NCBI GenBank assembly: GCA_902805865.1
Contig: CADCUK010000025.1
Location: forward strand, 4,206-50,053
Direction of reading: 5' to 3'
From: an uncultured Nocardioidaceae bacterium
GTDB lineage: Bacteria > Actinomycetota > Actinomycetes > Propionibacteriales > Nocardioidaceae
DNA length: 45,848 bases
The notes below the pieces were generated by a model. It did no database searches, was not told the origin of the DNA, and saw only the letters and a list, made by a program, of their open reading frames with translations. Made by a program: the position numbers and the translations under genes. The stretch's first letter is position 1, and every line of letters starts with the position of its first letter. This document shows positions 36,423 through 45,560 of the stretch, one piece after another.

Positions 36423-37643
<1,221 letters not shown>

Positions 37644-38253: not shown

Positions 38254-38425
38254 GGTGTTCCCCTGTCGTCCGGCTCCGTTGCCGTTGGTCGCCGTCCGGC
38301 GCCATGTCCCTGACGCTACGAAGGTTCGGAGCCGACGTCTGCGTCCCTGGGGAGGGACTTCACGTGCGCCCCTGGGCGGGGTCCGCCTCCGCCCGTGGGC
38401 GGATGTGCTGCGGTCGACTGCGCCC

Positions 38426-38431
38426 TACGCT
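38426..38431 (+). promoter_or_regulatory. -10 element of probable leaderless promoter for the histidine kinase
   Basis: TACGCT lies seven bases upstream of the GTG at 38439, with no Shine-Dalgarno between. This supports the 38439 start over the in-frame ATG at 38304. Confidence 0.5.
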
Positions 38432-38438
38432 GGTCCGG

Positions 38439-39695
38439 GTGCGGACGGACGAGGTTCTGGCGGGGCTGAAGCGCCGCTGGACGCACGCCGGGTTCCCGAG
38501 CTACCCGGTGTGGATCCCGCTCGTCATGGACGGCAGCGCGGTCGCTGCGGGCGTCGGGTCGATCGTCCAGCGCGTCGGCGAGCATCCCCTGCTCCCGGTG
38601 ACGGCGCTGGTGCTGCTCGCGCTGACGCCGTGGTTGGTCGACTTCGTCGGCGTCTGGGTGCCCTGGTGGGCGTTCGCGGCCCCGGTCATCGGCGGCACGG
38701 CGACGGTGATGGTCGTCTACCCGATGCAGCACGACTTCGCGGTCTACCTGCTCGTCCTGATGGCGGGGCACATCGGAGCCACGGACCGGCTGGCCCGCAG
38801 CGCCGCGGCGACCGCATCGGCCGGCGCCGTGCTCGTCGTGCTCGACCAGATGGGCGAGTTCAGCGGCTCCAAGTTCTGGTTCGCGGCGCTCGTCGTCGGC
38901 TGGGACGTCGGCTTCATGCTCCAGCACCAGCAGCGCGCGATCGAGGAGCAGCAGCGCAGCCACTCCGCCCGCGAGCAGCAGGTGGTGCTGGAGGAGCGGC
39001 AACGGATCGCCCGCGAGGTGCATGACGTCATCGCCCACTCGTTGAGCGTGACGATGCTGCACCTCACCGCGGCCCGGCGGGACCTCGAGGAGGACGGCGC
39101 GGACCACGTCGAGGAGGCCGTCGAGGCCCTGCGCGACGCCGAGCGCGTGGGCCGGCAGGCGATGGCCGACATCAGGCGCACGGTCGGGCTGCTCGGCTCT
39201 CCCGTCCCCGGCCCGGTCGCTCCGGCGCCCGACCTCACCGACGTGCCGGCGCTGGTGCAGGAGTTCCGTGACGCCGGTGTCGACGTGGGCTACCGCAGCA
39301 CGATCGGCGCCGACGTCCTGCCCGCGCCGGTCGGGCTCGGCGTCTTCCGGGTGCTGCAGGAGTCGCTGGCCAACGTCGCGAAGCACCAACCGCACGCCTC
39401 GGTGTCCGTGGAGCTGCACCGGGTGGGCGAGAGCCTCCAGCTGACCGTCGTCAACGACCTCCGTCGCCGCCGCGACGGCCTCGCCGAGGAGCCCGACGGC
39501 CTCGGGTCGGGGTTGCGTGGCATGCGCGAGCGGGCCGAGCTCCTCGGCGGCACGCTCCTCGCCGGCCCCGACGGGAACGGCTGGCGGGTGCAGCTCGAGG
39601 TGCCGCTGGACCGCGGCGCACCGTCCGAGACCGCCGTCGGCAGGTGCCTGCCGTTCGGCGGTCGTTCCCCTGCTCCGGCGGAGGAGCTGTCGTGA
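38439..39695 (+). CDS. Sensor histidine kinase (HisKA_3, DesK/NarX-like)
   Basis: 418 residues from the GTG after a leaderless-type -10. Four to six membrane spans in the first about 165 residues (LLPVTALVLLALTPWLV, FAVYLLVLMAGHIG), then a cytoplasmic helix (QHQQRAIEEQQR). The HisKA_3 phospho-acceptor H195 is in IAREVHDVIAHSLS, and the HATPase_c domain has LQESLANVAKH and GSGLRGMRERAELLGG. It senses an unknown membrane or envelope cue and phosphorylates the regulator encoded next. An upstream in-frame ATG would add 45 Arg-rich residues and is not favoured. Confidence 0.92.
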   Translation: MRTDEVLAGLKRRWTHAGFPSYPVWIPLVMDGSAVAAGVGSIVQRVGEHPLLPVTALVLLALTPWLVDFVGVWVPWWAFAAPVIGGTATVMVVYPMQHDFAVYLLVLMAGHIGATDRLARSAAATASAGAVLVVLDQMGEFSGSKFWFAALVVGWDVGFMLQHQQRAIEEQQRSHSAREQQVVLEERQRIAREVHDVIAHSLSVTMLHLTAARRDLEEDGADHVEEAVEALRDAERVGRQAMADIRRTVGLLGSPVPGPVAPAPDLTDVPALVQEFRDAGVDVGYRSTIGADVLPAPVGLGVFRVLQESLANVAKHQPHASVSVELHRVGESLQLTVVNDLRRRRDGLAEEPDGLGSGLRGMRERAELLGGTLLAGPDGNGWRVQLEVPLDRGAPSETAVGRCLPFGGRSPAPAEELS

Positions 39696-39709
39696 CGGGA
39701 GGTGCCGGC

Positions 39710-40372
39710 GTGAGCGACGAGCTGACCCGGGTGCTGCTCGTGGACGACCAGGAGCTGGTGCGGTCGGGGCTGCGCCGGATCCTCCGCCGCAAGGACGGCT
39801 TCGAGATCGTCGCCGAGTGCGCGGACGGTTCCGAGGTGGAGGACGCCGTGCGCCGGCACCGGCCGCACGTCGTCGTGATGGACCTGCGGATGCGGGACGT
39901 CGACGGGATCGAGGCCACCCGCCGGCTCACGCTGCGCCCGGACTCGCCGCCCGTCCTGGTGCTGACCACGTTCGACGACGACGAGCTGCTCTCGGGCGCC
40001 CTGCGTGCCGGCGCTGCCGGGTTCGTGCTCAAGGACTCGCCCGCGGAACAGCTCGTGCATGCCGTCCGGACGGTCGCCGCCGGCTCCGCCGTGCTCGACC
40101 CTGCCGTGACGAGCCGGGTGCTGGACGCCTACCGGTCGGCCCCGGAGGGCACGACGACCGCCGCCGCACCGGAGTCGCTGACCGCCCGGGAGCTCGACGT
40201 CCTCTGCCTGCTCGGCCGCGGGCTGAGCAACTCCGAGATCGCCGCCGCCCTCTCGATCTCGGAGGTGACCGTGAAGAGCCACATCGGCCGGATCTTCACC
40301 AAGCTCGATCTCCGTGACCGCGCTGCGGCGATCGTGTACGCGTTCGACCACCGGCTCGTGAGCCCGGGCTGA
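39710..40372 (+). CDS. NarL-family response regulator, partner of the upstream kinase
   Basis: 220 residues from the GTG at 39710, chosen because GGGAGG lies eight bases upstream; a GTG at 39692 overlapping the kinase stop would add six residues. The receiver has VLLVDDQE, phospho-acceptor D58 (VVVMDLRMRDVDG), switch T/S and FVLKDSPAEQL. The HTH (about 155–215) reads LTARELDVLCLLGRGLSNSEIA and LSISEVTVKSHIGRIFTKLDL. It forms a standard two-component pair with the upstream kinase. Target genes unknown. Confidence 0.93.
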   Translation: MSDELTRVLLVDDQELVRSGLRRILRRKDGFEIVAECADGSEVEDAVRRHRPHVVVMDLRMRDVDGIEATRRLTLRPDSPPVLVLTTFDDDELLSGALRAGAAGFVLKDSPAEQLVHAVRTVAAGSAVLDPAVTSRVLDAYRSAPEGTTTAAAPESLTARELDVLCLLGRGLSNSEIAAALSISEVTVKSHIGRIFTKLDLRDRAAAIVYAFDHRLVSPG

Positions 40373-40441: not shown

Positions 40442-40535
40442 GCTCCCTGGAACGGGGTGGCCAGGCACCGCAGACGCACCGGAAGCGCAGACGCAGCCGC
40501 GATGGCCGGACTGACGGCACGACACGGAGTTTCCA

Positions 40536-43500
40536 TTGCGTAGGTTCCTCGAGACGAGCGGTGAGCTGGGCCAGGACCTGCTCGCCGTCGACTGGGATGC
40601 CACACCGCTGGGTGAGCCCGACAGCTGGCCCTACGCGCTGCGCAACTCCGTGCGGATCCTCCTCACCTCCAAGTTCTCCATGTGGATGGCCTGGGGCCCG
40701 GAGCTGACGTTCCTCTGCAACGAGGCCTACCGGCGCGACACGCTCGGCAAGAAGTACCCCTGGGCGCTCGGCAAGCCGGCCTCCGAGGTGTGGTCGGAGA
40801 TCTGGGACGACATCCACCCGCGCATCAAGACGGTCATGGAGACCGGGGAGGCGACCTGGGACGAGTCGCTGCAGCTCTTCCTGGAGCGCAGCGGCTACGT
40901 CGAGGAGAGCTACCACACCTTCTCCTACAGCCCGCTGGTCGACGACGAGAACGTCTTCCGCGGCATGCTCTGCGTCGTCAAGGAGGACACCGAGGAGGTC
41001 ATCGCCGCCCGGCGGATGGCGACCCTGGGCGCGCTGGGCACCCGGTCCAGCGACCTCAACGAGGCCGAGACGATCGCCTCGGCCTGCCGGCACCTCGCGG
41101 CGAACCCGTGGTCGTTGCCCTTCACGCTCACCTACCTCTTCGAGGACGACGGGCTGACGGCCAGGCTCGCCGGCACCACCGGGTTCACCGGCCCGCACCC
41201 CGCCGCCCCCGACGCCCTCGACGTGCAGGACCCCGAGTCGGTGTGGCCCGCGGACCAGCTGATCCAAGGCGTCCCGGTGGTCGTCGACGACCTGCCCTCA
41301 CGGTTCGACTCGCTGCCCACCGGTGACTGGGTCGATCCGCCGTTCACAGCGGTCGTCGTACCTCTCCTGCAACCGGGTCAGCCGGTGCCCTACGGCTTCC
41401 TCGTCGTCGGCGCGAACCCCTACCGGCCGCTCGACGAGAACTACCTGTCCTTCCTGCGACTCATCGCCGGCCACATCGCCGGCGCCATCACCGACGCGCG
41501 CGCGTTCGAGTTCGAGCGCCAGCGCGCAGAGACGCCCGCCGAGCTCGACCGGGTCAAGACCGACTTCTTCACGAACATCAGCCATGAGTTCCGCACGCCG
41601 TTGACTCTCATGCTGGGCCCGGCCGAGGACGCCCTCTCCGACGAGGTGGAGCCGATGCCGGCGCGGCAGCGGCAGCGGGTCGAGATGGTGCGGCGCAACG
41701 GCCAGCGGCTGCTCACGCTCGTCAACAGCCTCCTCGACTTCTCCAGGCTCGCCTCCGGACAGGTGACCAGCCGCTTCAGCCCGGTCGACCTCGGCCGGTA
41801 CACGAGCGAGCTCGTCGCCATGTTCGCCTCCGCCACCGAGCGGGCCGGGTTGGCGCTGACGATCGAGTGCGAGCCGCTTGCGCAGCCGGTCCACGTGGAC
41901 CCCGACCAGTGGGCCAAGATCGTCCTCAACCTGGTGTCGAACGCGCTCAAGTACACGTTCGAGGGCGGCGTCACCGTGCGGCTGGGTGAGGACGACGGGC
42001 AGGCGGTGCTGTCGGTCACCGACACCGGCACCGGCATCCCGGAGGGCGAGCTCCCGCACCTGTTCGAGCGGTTCCACCGGGTCCACGGCGCCCGGTCCCG
42101 GACCTTCGAGGGATCGGGCATCGGACTGGCCATGGTCGCCGAGCTCGCCGCCCTCCACGGCGGCACCGTCGAGGCGGAGAGCCGGGTCGGGTTCGGCTCG
42201 ACGTTCACCGTGCGGCTGCCGATCGGCACCGCCCACCTGCCGGCCGAGCAGGTCGTCGCCGCGGACGATGCCGAGGCGGACACCGCTCCGGAAGTCGTGG
42301 TGCAGCAGGCCCAGGGCGTGGTCGAGGAGGCGCTGCGGTGGATCGAGACCCCGGACGCCGAGCAAGCTCTCACCGACACCGACGGGCCTGCCGAGACCCA
42401 CGGGCGCGTGCTCGTCGTCGAGGACAACCCCGACATGCGTGACTACATCGCGGGGCTGCTCACCCAGGAGTACGTCGTGCAGACCGCCGTCGACGGCCTC
42501 GACGCGCTCGAGCGGGTCGCCGAGTTCCGGCCGGACCTCATCCTGACCGACGTGATGATGCCGCGGCTGGACGGGTTCGGCTTGCTGCAGCGGCTCCACG
42601 CCGACCCGGCCACGACCGGCATCCCGGTCATCATGCTGTCCGCCCGCGCCGGCGACGAGGGCACCGTCGAAGGGCTCGAGGCCGGGGCCGACGACTACCT
42701 CGTCAAGCCCTTCTCGGCACGCGAGCTCAAGGCACGCATCCGGGTCAACCTGGAGCTCGACCGGAACCGGCGGCTGCGTGAGTCGCTCGAGCGCACCGGC
42801 GAGCTGCTCGACCAGGCCCAGCGGTTGGCGAAGGTCGCCAGCTGGGAGGTCGACCTCGCCACGGACAGGGTCAAGGCGTCCGACGAGCTGTGGCGGATCT
42901 TCCAGCGCACGCAGGAGGACTTCGACCGGAACGGGTTCTCCGGGATGGTGCTGGACCTCGTGGTCCCGGAGGACCAGCGCATCATCGAGGAGGCCTTCGC
43001 CGCGGCGGTGCCCGGCGGCCTGGTCGAGTACGAGGTGCGGATCAGGCCCGCGCCGGGCATCGAGCGGCTGCTGGCCGTCCGCGGGGAGGTCGTGGACGAC
43101 GAGGGCGGCACCGCGCGCCGGCTCCGGGGCTCGATCCAGGACATCACCGAGCAGCGCAAGGCCGAGCAGGCCGTCGCCACCGCGTCGGCGGTCCACGAGG
43201 CCGCGGCGCGCGAGCACTCCATCGCCGACGAGCTGCAGCGCAGCCTCCTCCCGGAGCGGTCGTTCGACCTCGAGCACCTCGACGTAGCGACCTACTACCG
43301 CGCGGGCGTCGAGGGCACCCAGGTCGGTGGCGACTGGTACGACATCATCGAGCTCGGTGCCGGCCGGACCGCGCTCGTCGTCGGGGACGTCATGGGCCGG
43401 GGCGTGAGCGCAGCCGCCGGCATGGGACAGCTGCGTTCCGCCGTACGAGCGTTCGCGAAGCTGGACCTGCCGCCGTCGGAGGTGCTCGAGTACCTCGACG

Positions 43501-44351
43501 GGATCGTGCAGGACCTCGAGGGCGACCAGATCGTCACGTGTGTCTACGCGGTGTTCGACTCCACCGACCAGACCCTGCGCTACGCCAACGCCGGTCACCT
43601 GCCGCTGCTGCTGATCCGCCCGGGCGTCGGGTCGGAGAAGCTCGGCGACGCGGGGCCGCCGCTGGGCGCCGGGTTCTTCGACCAGCTCACCGAGGCGGTC
43701 CAGCTGGACCCGGGCTGCACTGTGGCCTTCTACACCGACGGCCTCGTCGAACGCCGCGAGCGCGACATCGACGCCGGGATCGAGGCGCTCGCCGAGCAGC
43801 TGGAGATGCACGCGGAGACCGAGCTGGCCGGCATGCCGGAGATCCTCGTCGGCGCGCTGCTGCCCGACGGGCCCGACGACGACATCGCGATCCTCGTCGC
43901 CCGGGTCAACCAGGAGCCGTTCGCGGCGGCGGTTCACCACCGCCTCGGCCAGGACGAGCCCGCCGTGGCGAACGCCAGGCGCGTGGTCACCGAGAACCTC
44001 CAGTCCTGGGGCATCCCGGGCGACACGATCGACGAGGCGGTGCTCATCGCGAGCGAGCTCGTCACCAACGCCTTCCTGCACGGCCGGCCGCCGATCGACC
44101 TCCGGCTCCGGAGCAGCGGCAACGAGATCACCCTCGAGGTGCAGGATCGGGCGCCGTACCGGCCTCGGCGACGCCGCGCCCGCGACGACGAGGAGAACGG
44201 CAGAGGGCTGCAGATCGTGTCGATCCTGGCCGACCGCTGGGGCAGTCGCGCCACCGGCACCGGCAAGTCGGTCTGGTGCACGCTGGCGTTCAAGTCCGGC
44301 TCGATGGACGAGAGCGACGGCCAGTCGCGTTCGGTGGGCTCCGACCGCTAG
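40536..44351 (+). CDS. Hybrid signalling protein: PAS–GAF–histidine kinase–receiver–PAS–SpoIIE phosphatase–anti-sigma-type kinase
   Basis: 1,271 residues with a TTG start preceded by CGGAG. Domains in order: PAS-like (about 25–155), GAF (about 165–325), and HisKA with H350 (FFTNISHEFRTPLT) plus HATPase_c with N469 and GTGIPEGELPHLFERF. A receiver follows with D672 (LILTDVMMPRLDG) and K in YLVKPFS, then PAS (about 780–890). The SpoIIE-type PP2C has D933 (QVGGDWYDI), D951 (VVGDVMGRG), FYTDGLVE and PDDDIAILV. Last is an RsbW/SpoIIAB-like HATPase_c with N1178 (ELVTNAFLHG) and GRGLQIVSILADRWG. No membrane span. It joins two-component input to partner-switching output in one chain. No sigma factor or STAS gene is adjacent. 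Its stop overlaps the convergent gene by four bases. Confidence 0.93.
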   Translation: MRRFLETSGELGQDLLAVDWDATPLGEPDSWPYALRNSVRILLTSKFSMWMAWGPELTFLCNEAYRRDTLGKKYPWALGKPASEVWSEIWDDIHPRIKTVMETGEATWDESLQLFLERSGYVEESYHTFSYSPLVDDENVFRGMLCVVKEDTEEVIAARRMATLGALGTRSSDLNEAETIASACRHLAANPWSLPFTLTYLFEDDGLTARLAGTTGFTGPHPAAPDALDVQDPESVWPADQLIQGVPVVVDDLPSRFDSLPTGDWVDPPFTAVVVPLLQPGQPVPYGFLVVGANPYRPLDENYLSFLRLIAGHIAGAITDARAFEFERQRAETPAELDRVKTDFFTNISHEFRTPLTLMLGPAEDALSDEVEPMPARQRQRVEMVRRNGQRLLTLVNSLLDFSRLASGQVTSRFSPVDLGRYTSELVAMFASATERAGLALTIECEPLAQPVHVDPDQWAKIVLNLVSNALKYTFEGGVTVRLGEDDGQAVLSVTDTGTGIPEGELPHLFERFHRVHGARSRTFEGSGIGLAMVAELAALHGGTVEAESRVGFGSTFTVRLPIGTAHLPAEQVVAADDAEADTAPEVVVQQAQGVVEEALRWIETPDAEQALTDTDGPAETHGRVLVVEDNPDMRDYIAGLLTQEYVVQTAVDGLDALERVAEFRPDLILTDVMMPRLDGFGLLQRLHADPATTGIPVIMLSARAGDEGTVEGLEAGADDYLVKPFSARELKARIRVNLELDRNRRLRESLERTGELLDQAQRLAKVASWEVDLATDRVKASDELWRIFQRTQEDFDRNGFSGMVLDLVVPEDQRIIEEAFAAAVPGGLVEYEVRIRPAPGIERLLAVRGEVVDDEGGTARRLRGSIQDITEQRKAEQAVATASAVHEAAAREHSIADELQRSLLPERSFDLEHLDVATYYRAGVEGTQVGGDWYDIIELGAGRTALVVGDVMGRGVSAAAGMGQLRSAVRAFAKLDLPPSEVLEYLDGIVQDLEGDQIVTCVYAVFDSTDQTLRYANAGHLPLLLIRPGVGSEKLGDAGPPLGAGFFDQLTEAVQLDPGCTVAFYTDGLVERRERDIDAGIEALAEQLEMHAETELAGMPEILVGALLPDGPDDDIAILVARVNQEPFAAAVHHRLGQDEPAVANARRVVTENLQSWGIPGDTIDEAVLIASELVTNAFLHGRPPIDLRLRSSGNEITLEVQDRAPYRPRRRRARDDEENGRGLQIVSILADRWGSRATGTGKSVWCTLAFKSGSMDESDGQSRSVGSDR

Positions 44352-44791
44352 GTCGGCCGCACGAACCGCAGGTCCGAGCCGTCCAGCGACGCGAGCCAGT
44401 CACGGGCACGCTTGGCCGAGGCGCGGGACAACCAGGCGTCCTGGACCAGCTCGGCCACCTCGTCCCGGGTCAGCTCACCGATGCGCGAGCCCCGGAGCAG
44501 CACCGAACGGTGGCCGTCGAAGTGCGGGGTGGTGAAGTACGGCGTCGAAGGGTCCGCGACCATCGCCTCCTTGTCCTCCTCCTCGGCCACCCAGAAGACG
44601 ATGACGTCGTCGTACCGCTCCCCGGTGTCGGGGTCGAAGGCGTCCGGACGCCGTCCGCGGAAGAAGACGAACGACTTCCCGCCGACCTGGTAGACCGGTC
44701 GCTCCTCCGGACCGCTCGACGTCACGTGCGGCATCGCCTGAGCCACCTCGTGCACGTCGCTGATGCGCGCCTTGCGTGACCGTCTGCCCAC
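44348..44791 (-). CDS. MmcQ/YjbR family protein
   Basis: 147 residues from a GTG; the minus strand carries TAACCT six bases upstream, suggesting leaderless initiation. Features of the MmcQ/YjbR (DUF419) group are MPHVTSSGPEERPVYQVGGK, FVFFRG, TPYFTTPHFDGHRSVLLRG and ELVQDAWLSRASAKRA, giving a small alpha/beta fold related to CyaY-like proteins, sometimes described as DNA-binding. Function not established. Convergent with the hybrid kinase, sharing CTAG as both stops. Confidence 0.82.
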   Translation of the reverse strand: MGRRSRKARISDVHEVAQAMPHVTSSGPEERPVYQVGGKSFVFFRGRRPDAFDPDTGERYDDVIVFWVAEEEDKEAMVADPSTPYFTTPHFDGHRSVLLRGSRIGELTRDEVAELVQDAWLSRASAKRARDWLASLDGSDLRFVRPT

Positions 44792-44807: not shown

Positions 44808-45560
44808 TCAGCGGGCCTCGCTGTCGCCGTCGACCTCGATCTGCTCCTTGCGGACCTCGTCCGAGACGGTCTGCTGCTCGGTCACGGTCTCCTTGTCCAG
44901 CCGCACCCTCTCGACCGGCGTGACGGTCTTGTCGACGACCGCACGCTCCTCGTTGAGGACGACCTCGTGCTCCCGCTCGGTGATCTCCGGTCCGTCGACC
45001 GACTCCGCATAGTTCTCCTCGGTGACCGGCTCGCGGTGCACCACGGCCCGCTCCTTCGAGACCGGGACCGTGACGCTCTCCTGCTCCGTCTCGACCCACT
45101 TCCGGAGCCGCGCCCGTCCGGCCTCCTGGCGCTCCTTGCCGACCTCCAGCTGCTCCTCCGAGCGGGTCATGGCCTGGTCCGTGGTGGGGCCGGACGTGTC
45201 GTGCCCGACCGTGCCGGTCCCCGTCTCCACGTCGGTCCGCCCGTCGCCGTACGCCAAGCCGTAGTAGGTGAAGATCTGCTGCTCCTCCTCCGGCGAGATG
45301 TGACCGTCGGTGTCGACGTTGGGTGCGTTCTTCACCTTGTCCTTGTCGTAGGGGACCGTCACCCCGTCGGCGGTGGCGTCGGCCGCCTCGACCGGGACGA
45401 AGCTCTCGCTCGTCCCGAGCATCCCGGTGCTCACGGTGATGAACTGCGGCTGCTGGGTCTCGTCGTCGAGGTAGACCTGGCCCACCGTGCCGATCTTCTC
45501 GCCGTCGCTGCCGTGCACGGTCTGTCCGATCAAGGACTTGATGTCCTGGGTCCCGAGCAT
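44808..45560 (-). CDS. PRC-barrel and DUF2382 domain protein
   Basis: 250 residues, ATG with GGGAG about seven bases upstream. The N-terminal PRC-barrel (about 3–90) reads IKSLIGQTVHGSDGEKIGTVGQVYLDD-like pattern with FVPVEAAD. After a Gly/Thr linker, the C-terminal DUF2382 region (about 130–245) is highly charged with alternating short strands such as ESVTVPVSKERAVVHREPV and VERVRLDKETVTEQQTV. Such proteins are common stress-associated, possibly envelope- or RNA-linked, proteins in radiation- and desiccation-tolerant actinobacteria. Role unproven. Confidence 0.9.
   Translation of the reverse strand: MLGTQDIKSLIGQTVHGSDGEKIGTVGQVYLDDETQQPQFITVSTGMLGTSESFVPVEAADATADGVTVPYDKDKVKNAPNVDTDGHISPEEEQQIFTYYGLAYGDGRTDVETGTGTVGHDTSGPTTDQAMTRSEEQLEVGKERQEAGRARLRKWVETEQESVTVPVSKERAVVHREPVTEENYAESVDGPEITEREHEVVLNEERAVVDKTVTPVERVRLDKETVTEQQTVSDEVRKEQIEVDGDSEAR

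Follow-up and report, generated by a model that had tools for sequence, protein, structure and literature searches.

A putative Rv1364c-like partner-switching enzyme with an inserted phosphorelay in an uncultured Nocardioidaceae bacterium

The window, a stretch of 45,848 nucleotides from an uncultured Nocardioidaceae bacterium, carries a gene (40536..44351, plus strand, as are all features below) whose product of 1,271 residues joins a sensor histidine kinase, a receiver, a phosphatase and an anti-sigma-type kinase in a single chain. The locus raises the question of which protein such an enzyme acts upon, and how a phosphorelay could govern two opposed serine-phosphorylation activities fused behind it. 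An earlier note, made from the sequence, had read the chain as a novel partner-switching device and left its target unknown.

Domain layout and conserved residues

The reading frame, which begins with TTG and ends with TAG, is real. Its start residue is matched exactly by ATG or GTG in 13 of the 14 orthologs checked, which supports the position of the TTG codon, and a likely ribosome-binding site, ggag (40526..40529), lies 6 nt 5′ of it. Nothing was found to support the suggestion that a TTG start means low expression. The Pfam domains follow the order PAS-GAF-HisKA-HATPase_c-REC-PAS-SpoIIE-HATPase_c_2 and all score above their gathering thresholds, the PAS_3 match (residues 779-865) barely so. 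Among the matches listed for the chain, no NCBIfam model exceeded its cut-off.

The chain opens with a PAS domain (40536..41015; residues 1-160, Pfam PAS_4 at 61-153), the best conserved of its domains with a mean identity of 69% among orthologs. A GAF domain follows (41070..41489; residues 179-318; Pfam GAF_2), modeled by AlphaFold2 with a pLDDT of 91. The HisKA dimerization and phosphoacceptor domain (41556..41759; residues 341-408; Pfam) contains H350, the HATPase_c catalytic domain of the sensor kinase (41898..42224; residues 455-563; Pfam) contains N469, D496 and the G-boxes, and the receiver (42408..42743; residues 625-736; Pfam Response_reg) contains D630, D672 and K724. This half is that of a hybrid histidine kinase, with the HisKA His, the HATPase N and G boxes and an in-chain receiver bearing a phosphorylatable Asp. 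In the AlphaFold2 model, a structure prediction that the earlier note had proposed, a 39-residue helix (42717..42833; residues 728-766) joins the receiver to a second PAS domain (42870..43130; residues 779-865; Pfam PAS_3), and a 34-residue helix (43146..43247; residues 871-904) joins this PAS to the SpoIIE-type PP2C phosphatase (43248..43907; residues ~905-1124, Pfam SpoIIE at 942-1124; D933, D936, D951, D1068, D1115, D1116). The last domain is HATPase_c_2, an RsbW/SpoIIAB-type ATPase (43962..44279; residues 1143-1248; Pfam; E1174, N1178, D1204, G1222, G1224). The kinase, receiver, PP2C and RsbW-type ATPase had all been recognized earlier, but the N-terminal PAS, the GAF and the second PAS had been overlooked.

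The catalytic residues named at that time, H350, N469, D672, D933, D951 and N1178, were all placed correctly and are essentially invariant across 38 orthologs. In this alignment H350, E351, N469, D630, D672, K724, N1178, D1204 and both G2 glycines are invariant where aligned, D496 is present and likewise invariant, and D933 and D951 are each absent from one divergent row. The metal-binding acids of SpoIIE are Asp610, Asp628, Asp746 and Asp795 (PMC3517971). Their equivalents by motif are D933, D951, D1068 and D1115, all near-invariant; the earlier list had the first two and missed D1068 and the D1115/D1116 pair. HATPase_c_2 displays the motifs of an RsbW/SpoIIAB-type kinase, namely the N-box N1178, the G1 residue D1204 and the G2 glycines G1222 and G1224, together with E1174, which is probably the catalytic base. 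It also shows the lowest conservation among the catalytic domains (32% mean identity), and E1174 is replaced by Ala in four orthologs; kinase activity is therefore not assured in every member of the family. One ortholog (L062) has no match beyond the SpoIIE domain.

Spread of the family and resemblance to known systems

The chain is not unique: relatives occur in 60 of 395 sampled genomes of the same class (~15%, about one in six). Full-length orthologs are found across Actinobacteria, including Streptomyces and Mycobacterium, at 41-70% identity, and this spread, together with the conservation of key residues, argues that the fusion did not arise by chance. The 38 aligned orthologs span two deep clades. 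Orthologs of the Streptomyces type have the same architecture as the window copy, but carry ~125 extra residues ahead of the phosphatase, and their RsbW N-box is closer to the canonical form. A single fusion origin is compatible with the phosphatase halves of the two clades, for which a one-clade topology was not rejected (p-AU 0.155). In S. coelicolor, the counterpart of these proteins is probably SCO7327/OsaD, an identity that we infer from Streptomyces orthologs sharing the fusion architecture rather than from the sequence of SCO7327 itself. SCO7327 is catalogued as an orphan, one of three hybrid kinases whose cascades are unclear (PMC9739842), and is believed to help sense osmotic stress (PMC9739823).

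The earlier note had described phosphatase and kinase as normally separate proteins. However, Rv1364c of M. tuberculosis has both, and its RsbU-RsbW structure (3KE6) is the best PDB match of the SpoIIE-HATPase_c_2 half by sequence (E 9e-26) and by fold (Foldseek). The PAS of Rv1364c is likewise the only PDB family found for the N-terminal PAS (profile E 4e-8). Like the fusion, Rv1364c (PDB 3KE6, 3K3C, 3K3D, 3KX0) unites an N-terminal PAS, a SpoIIE phosphatase and an RsbW kinase in one polypeptide. Unlike the fusion, it carries its own STAS substrate in the chain (PAS-PP2C-RsbW-STAS) and lacks a histidine kinase, receiver, GAF and second PAS. The fusion has a GAF-HK-REC-PAS block in between and no in-chain STAS; the STAS is encoded apart from it, in many relatives by a coupled gene. 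Read from its sequence, the fusion is best described as an Rv1364c-like partner-switch enzyme into which a phosphorelay appears to have been inserted. It may function as Rv1364c does, but is not counted as a protein of that type. What seems to be new here is the predicted target and the STAS linkage of the relatives, the phosphatase-kinase fusion being already known from Rv1364c.

Other systems resemble parts of the chain. In RsfS/RsfR of M. smegmatis and RsbK/RsbY of Bacillus cereus, a histidine kinase acts through a receiver and a PP2C phosphatase on a STAS protein and thereby on SigF or SigB (PMC10950880); both consist of two proteins, however, and have no kinase fused against the phosphatase. 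The nearest tested analogue is RsfSR, in which receiver-PP2C control of STAS was shown experimentally and phosphorylation of RsfR lowers phosphatase activity (PMC10950880). OsaC of S. coelicolor combines a SigB-binding kinase domain with GAF, PAS and phosphatase domains, but its kinase domain is N-terminal. We know of no histidine kinase and receiver in OsaC, although a review describes it as having both.

STAS and sigma genes beside the relatives and in the host genome

The statement that no STAS or sigma gene is adjacent holds for the window, in which a sensitive STAS profile found no STAS, and for the two closest relatives, but fails for many others. Of 38 orthologs, 29 have an RsbV-type STAS gene no more than 1 kb from the fusion, against a STAS gene density of 0.023 per kb at greater distances; in a second, partly overlapping sample the figure is 20 of 40. 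A first check with short flanks had found STAS genes rare among the closest relatives. With wider flanks and more genomes, linkage proved near-universal in the Streptomyces/mycobacterial type (13 of 15 copies in the 40-ortholog sample) and a minority trait in the window's type (7 of 25, leaving 18 copies unlinked), and the claim of linkage is narrowed accordingly. The fusion stop and STAS start overlap (ATGA or TGATG) in Aeromicrobium, Streptomyces, Actinomadura and Mycobacterium. Every linked STAS examined retains the phosphoserine motif (Asp-Ser), and the two linked proteins that were tested score above the cut-off of NCBIfam for antagonists of anti-sigma factors. Linkage in the relatives thus yields a specific substrate prediction for an orphan hybrid kinase: the target, previously called unknown, is at the family level very probably a STAS antagonist. 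Encoding the STAS with the enzyme is usual in partner switching, not obligatory, and the window copy does not do so. No neighbor common to all unlinked copies was found, and a YjbR gene is common only to the close clade.

In four Nocardioides, a STAS gene, the fusion and a SigB/F-type sigma gene occur together, no other RsbW was found in the flanks of these loci, and these four fusions are exactly those in which E1174 is replaced by Ala. Such loci point to an alternative in which the last domain serves as an anti-sigma factor, holding sigma directly and freeing it once its neighbor dephosphorylates the STAS, kinase activity being minor or lost. Sigma binding has been reported for Rv1364c and for the N-terminal kinase domain of OsaC. 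Nevertheless, E1174 and N1178 are retained in the window copy and nearly all others, and the four sigma-linked copies form one clade, so that their linkage and their Ala substitution count as a single event. In addition, RsbW2 of M. smegmatis phosphorylates STAS but does not bind SigF (PMC7693655), which shows that such a domain can be a kinase only and need not bind sigma, as the earlier note had assumed it would. Direct sigma binding by the last domain is therefore considered unlikely.

Most STAS-linked loci have no sigma gene nearby, as would be expected if the STAS module controlled a non-sigma target. Switches of this kind exist, for instance SiaABC, which reportedly governs biofilm formation in Pseudomonas. 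However, a SigB/F-type gene adjoins the fusion at four loci and the host genome contains a SigF operon, and a non-sigma target is about as improbable as direct sigma binding.

Partners were sought genome-wide by family searches in an assembly that is 82% complete, so some may be missing. The search for STAS/RsbV proteins and SigB/SigF-type factors proposed earlier found both, and the complete lack of STAS that would have spoken against partner switching did not occur. Four STAS proteins are encoded, one of them canonical (contig C96, motif DSTGLG, a phospho-Ser STAS), and contig C86 carries the SigF operon with a SigBFG-family sigma (300 bits). The RsbW proteins beside the C96 STAS and the C86 SigF both lack the kinase N-box Asn. 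The same STAS could be served by other products of this genome, namely eleven further SpoIIE proteins and several further ATPases with an intact N-box; within short flanks, none of these 11 SpoIIE genes was found to have a STAS neighbor.

Proposed mechanism

The STAS linkage and the STAS and SigF of the host genome support the earlier placement of this hybrid kinase, with its PP2C phosphatase and RsbW/SpoIIAB-type ATPase, in partner switching. The fusion is probably a cytoplasmic input or control enzyme of an RsbV/RsbW/sigma circuit, with a relay, a STAS substrate and a partner in trans. The PAS and GAF domains would read signals that set the autophosphorylation of H350, whose phosphate would pass to D672 of the enzyme's own receiver. 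The second PAS and the long helix on either side of it would relay the receiver's state to the phosphatase, and perhaps also to the RsbW-type ATPase; helical-linker control of PP2C dimers has been proposed (PMC12143880). Phosphatase and ATPase would work against each other at the conserved serine in the STAS antagonist, and the phosphorylation state of this antagonist would decide whether it captures the anti-sigma factor and frees the SigB/F-type sigma. Many relatives would have this substrate encoded beside the fusion, often translationally coupled. In the host, the window's enzyme would work in trans. Its likeliest substrate would be the C96 STAS, and downstream of this would stand the pair on contig C86, SigF and an RsbW with a deficient kinase motif.

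Through the STAS linkage, a two-component phosphorelay would be connected with partner switching directly, within one molecule. The fusion also lends itself to testing how a receiver governs a PP2C phosphatase and its opposing kinase in the same chain. Phosphorylation of D672 could gate both outputs. Tentatively, a single aspartyl phosphate at this position might even tune dephosphorylation and phosphorylation of the STAS reciprocally, as a push-pull switch in one chain. One polypeptide could in this way produce an output that is sharp or bistable, and in operons with translational coupling, this coupling would fix the dose of substrate. To our knowledge, no described circuit places a His-Asp relay over both opposing Ser-phosphorylation outputs in one protein.

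Hybrid kinases normally hand phosphate onward, and the fusion is closely preceded by genes for a NarL-type kinase and regulator. The receiver might then be a phosphate sink or feed an external HPt or response regulator, the C-terminal enzymes following the second PAS and not D672. This is rather doubtful: the kinase and regulator were set aside as partners, not being conserved beside the fusion in relatives, and the modeled long helices join the receiver to the phosphatase half. More doubtful still is that the phosphatase is the sole output that matters and HATPase_c_2 a structural or ATP-sensing appendage, which would suit the low identity of this domain and the ortholog that ends its matches at SpoIIE, but not the N-box Asn, G1 Asp and G2 glycines, which never vary among those members of either clade that possess the domain.

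Architecture and conservation of the fusion protein

The fusion gene (40536-44351, + strand) opens with TTG and specifies a protein of 1,271 residues, a frame borne out by translation as the earlier note had read it, and the six residues singled out there (H350, N469, D672, D933, D951 and N1178) all occupy the positions assigned to them. The TTG is probably the right start, since ggag lies 6 nt upstream and the matching residue is ATG or GTG in 13 of 14 orthologs checked. Pfam domains follow in the order PAS_4, GAF_2, HisKA, HATPase_c, Response_reg, PAS_3, SpoIIE and HATPase_c_2.

About 38 orthologs of full length came out of a scan of genome contigs, with sources that include Nocardioides, Aeromicrobium, Streptomyces, Kitasatospora, Actinomadura, Mycobacterium and Pseudonocardiaceae. 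The ortholog tree splits into two deep clades: 20 rows group with the window's copy, and 18 form a Streptomyces/mycobacterial clade. When presence in whole genomes is scored as a match with E < 1e-150, relatives occur in 3/5 genomes of the genus, 25/150 of the family, 60/395 of the class and 11/296 of the phylum; in distant relatives the alignment spans the first 500-900 residues only, within open frames of mostly 1,200-1,500 aa.

H350, E351, N469, D630, D672, S702 and K724 are invariant in the orthologs where aligned, as are N1178, H1182, D1204, G1222 and G1224 of the C-terminal ATPase, while phosphatase residues D933 and D951 are each absent from one ortholog row. Mean identity is 0.69 for the N-terminal PAS, 0.62 for REC, 0.61 for CA and 0.60 for DHp, followed by SpoIIE (0.47), GAF (0.44), HATPase_c_2 (0.32) and the second PAS (0.26). 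Judged by these identities, the tightest constraint is on the sensory PAS and the relay, and the output half differs between clades. Three members are divergent: L062 has no match beyond SpoIIE, the SpoIIE active site of L089 is degenerate and L097 carries about 322 additional residues ahead of the phosphatase.

Against the PDB, the N-terminal PAS profile retrieved only sequences of Rv1364c (E 4e-8), a protein with a palmitate-binding PAS (PMC8694187). For the phosphatase-kinase half, the RsbU-RsbW structure of Rv1364c, 3KE6, is matched at E 9e-26 and is also the top fold match. Bacteriophytochromes are the best fold matches of the PAS-GAF model, with the Rv1364c PAS also among the matches; the bacteriophytochrome resemblance is read as general PAS-GAF likeness. 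In a monomer model of residues 605-1252 (mean pLDDT 84, pTM 0.56), the receiver is connected to the PAS by a 39-residue helix, and the PAS to the phosphatase by one of 34 residues. Helical linkers of this sort have been proposed as a general control of PP2C dimers (PMC12143880).

Linked STAS genes

A STAS gene lies ≤1 kb from the fusion in 29 of 38 orthologs, compared with 0.023 STAS genes per kb of outer flank. Because the STAS profile derives from fusion neighbours, in part from these same orthologs, a second sample of 40 fusion loci was taken from whole genomes, some of them shared with the first. Here STAS is linked in 20/40, with 2 further STAS genes across 304 kb; linkage is found in 13/15 loci of the Streptomyces/mycobacterial type and 7/25 of the window's type. 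Overlap of the STAS start with the fusion stop is seen in Aeromicrobium, mostly as ATGA, and takes the form TGATG in Streptomyces, Actinomadura, Actinokineospora and Mycobacterium. All linked STAS proteins examined keep the Asp-Ser phosphoacceptor motif. The window's genome has 11 other SpoIIE genes, which served as a control: no STAS neighbour occurs beside any of them within flanks of roughly 1.5 kb or less per side. The coupled gene of the relatives likely names the candidate substrate of the fusion.

In the window, a YjbR-family gene (44348-44791, - strand) converges on the fusion and overlaps its stop. L051 and L052, the nearest relatives of the window's copy, also carry this gene 3' of the fusion, and STAS takes that place in others.

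Sigma factors and candidate partners

Four Nocardioides loci (L057, L059, L060 and L085) show the order STAS, fusion, SigB/F-type sigma, with no further RsbW gene found in their flanks; at 228 bits, the sigma of L059 falls slightly below the SigBFG cut-off of 234. Genome G090 of the second sample likewise has STAS, fusion and sigma. Within the first set, only these four loci carry Ala at E1174 of the fused RsbW domain, by position presumably the SpoIIAB glutamate, four residues ahead of the N-box Asn. The substitution suggests that the domain turned into a plain anti-sigma factor in this clade, though as a single evolutionary event it is no proof alone.

The earlier note had proposed looking in the rest of the genome for STAS and sigma partners, and both are present in this 3.09 Mb draft (82% complete; window on contig C25). 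Among its four STAS proteins, the canonical DSTGLG occurs only on contig C96, the C27 protein reads DAAGLG and the remaining two depart from the motif; contig C86 carries an RsbW gene followed by a SigBFG-family sigma. Two RsbW proteins, one encoded next to the SigF gene (C86:4511-4714, - strand; L020) and one next to the canonical STAS (C96:1282-1623, - strand; L009), lack the N-box Asn (EACAI and EACAV, versus EXXXN in kinases). They are therefore probably kinase-inactive anti-sigma factors, resembling in this predicted role M. smegmatis RsbW1 (PMC7693655). The missing Asn implies that different proteins take the kinase and the anti-sigma role in this genome. The C96 serine would therefore need a separate kinase; several N-box-intact ATPases are candidates, the fused domain among them.

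Proposed mechanism and precedents

Most likely, PAS/GAF input would set phosphorylation of H350 and D672, the helices would relay the receiver state to the dimeric SpoIIE phosphatase, and this phosphatase and the kinase would act in opposition on the STAS serine, which would govern sigma release. RsfSR offers direct precedent for a receiver-PP2C protein that acts on a STAS; there, RsfR phosphorylation reduces phosphatase activity (PMC10950880). Rv1364c shows that a single-chain kinase and phosphatase can share one STAS as their target (cited in PMC10950880, PMC7693655).

Fusion of kinase to phosphatase is already known in Rv1364c, and the architecture is common among the genomes searched. The combination of that fusion with an in-chain phosphorelay is new, as is the coupled STAS gene that points to a likely substrate. 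The Streptomyces member, a probable, inferred match, is catalogued as an orphan hybrid kinase (PMC9739842) under the name OsaD (PMC9739823); no functional study was found in the literature searched.

Directly upstream of the fusion, a HisKA_3 sensor kinase (38304-39695, + strand) pairs with a NarL-type response regulator (39644-40372, + strand) in overlapping frames; in relatives this pair is not conserved next to the fusion. Also in the window are a PRC-barrel and DUF2382 protein (44808-45560, - strand) and, by eye only, a cytochrome P450-like frame (36423-37643, - strand).
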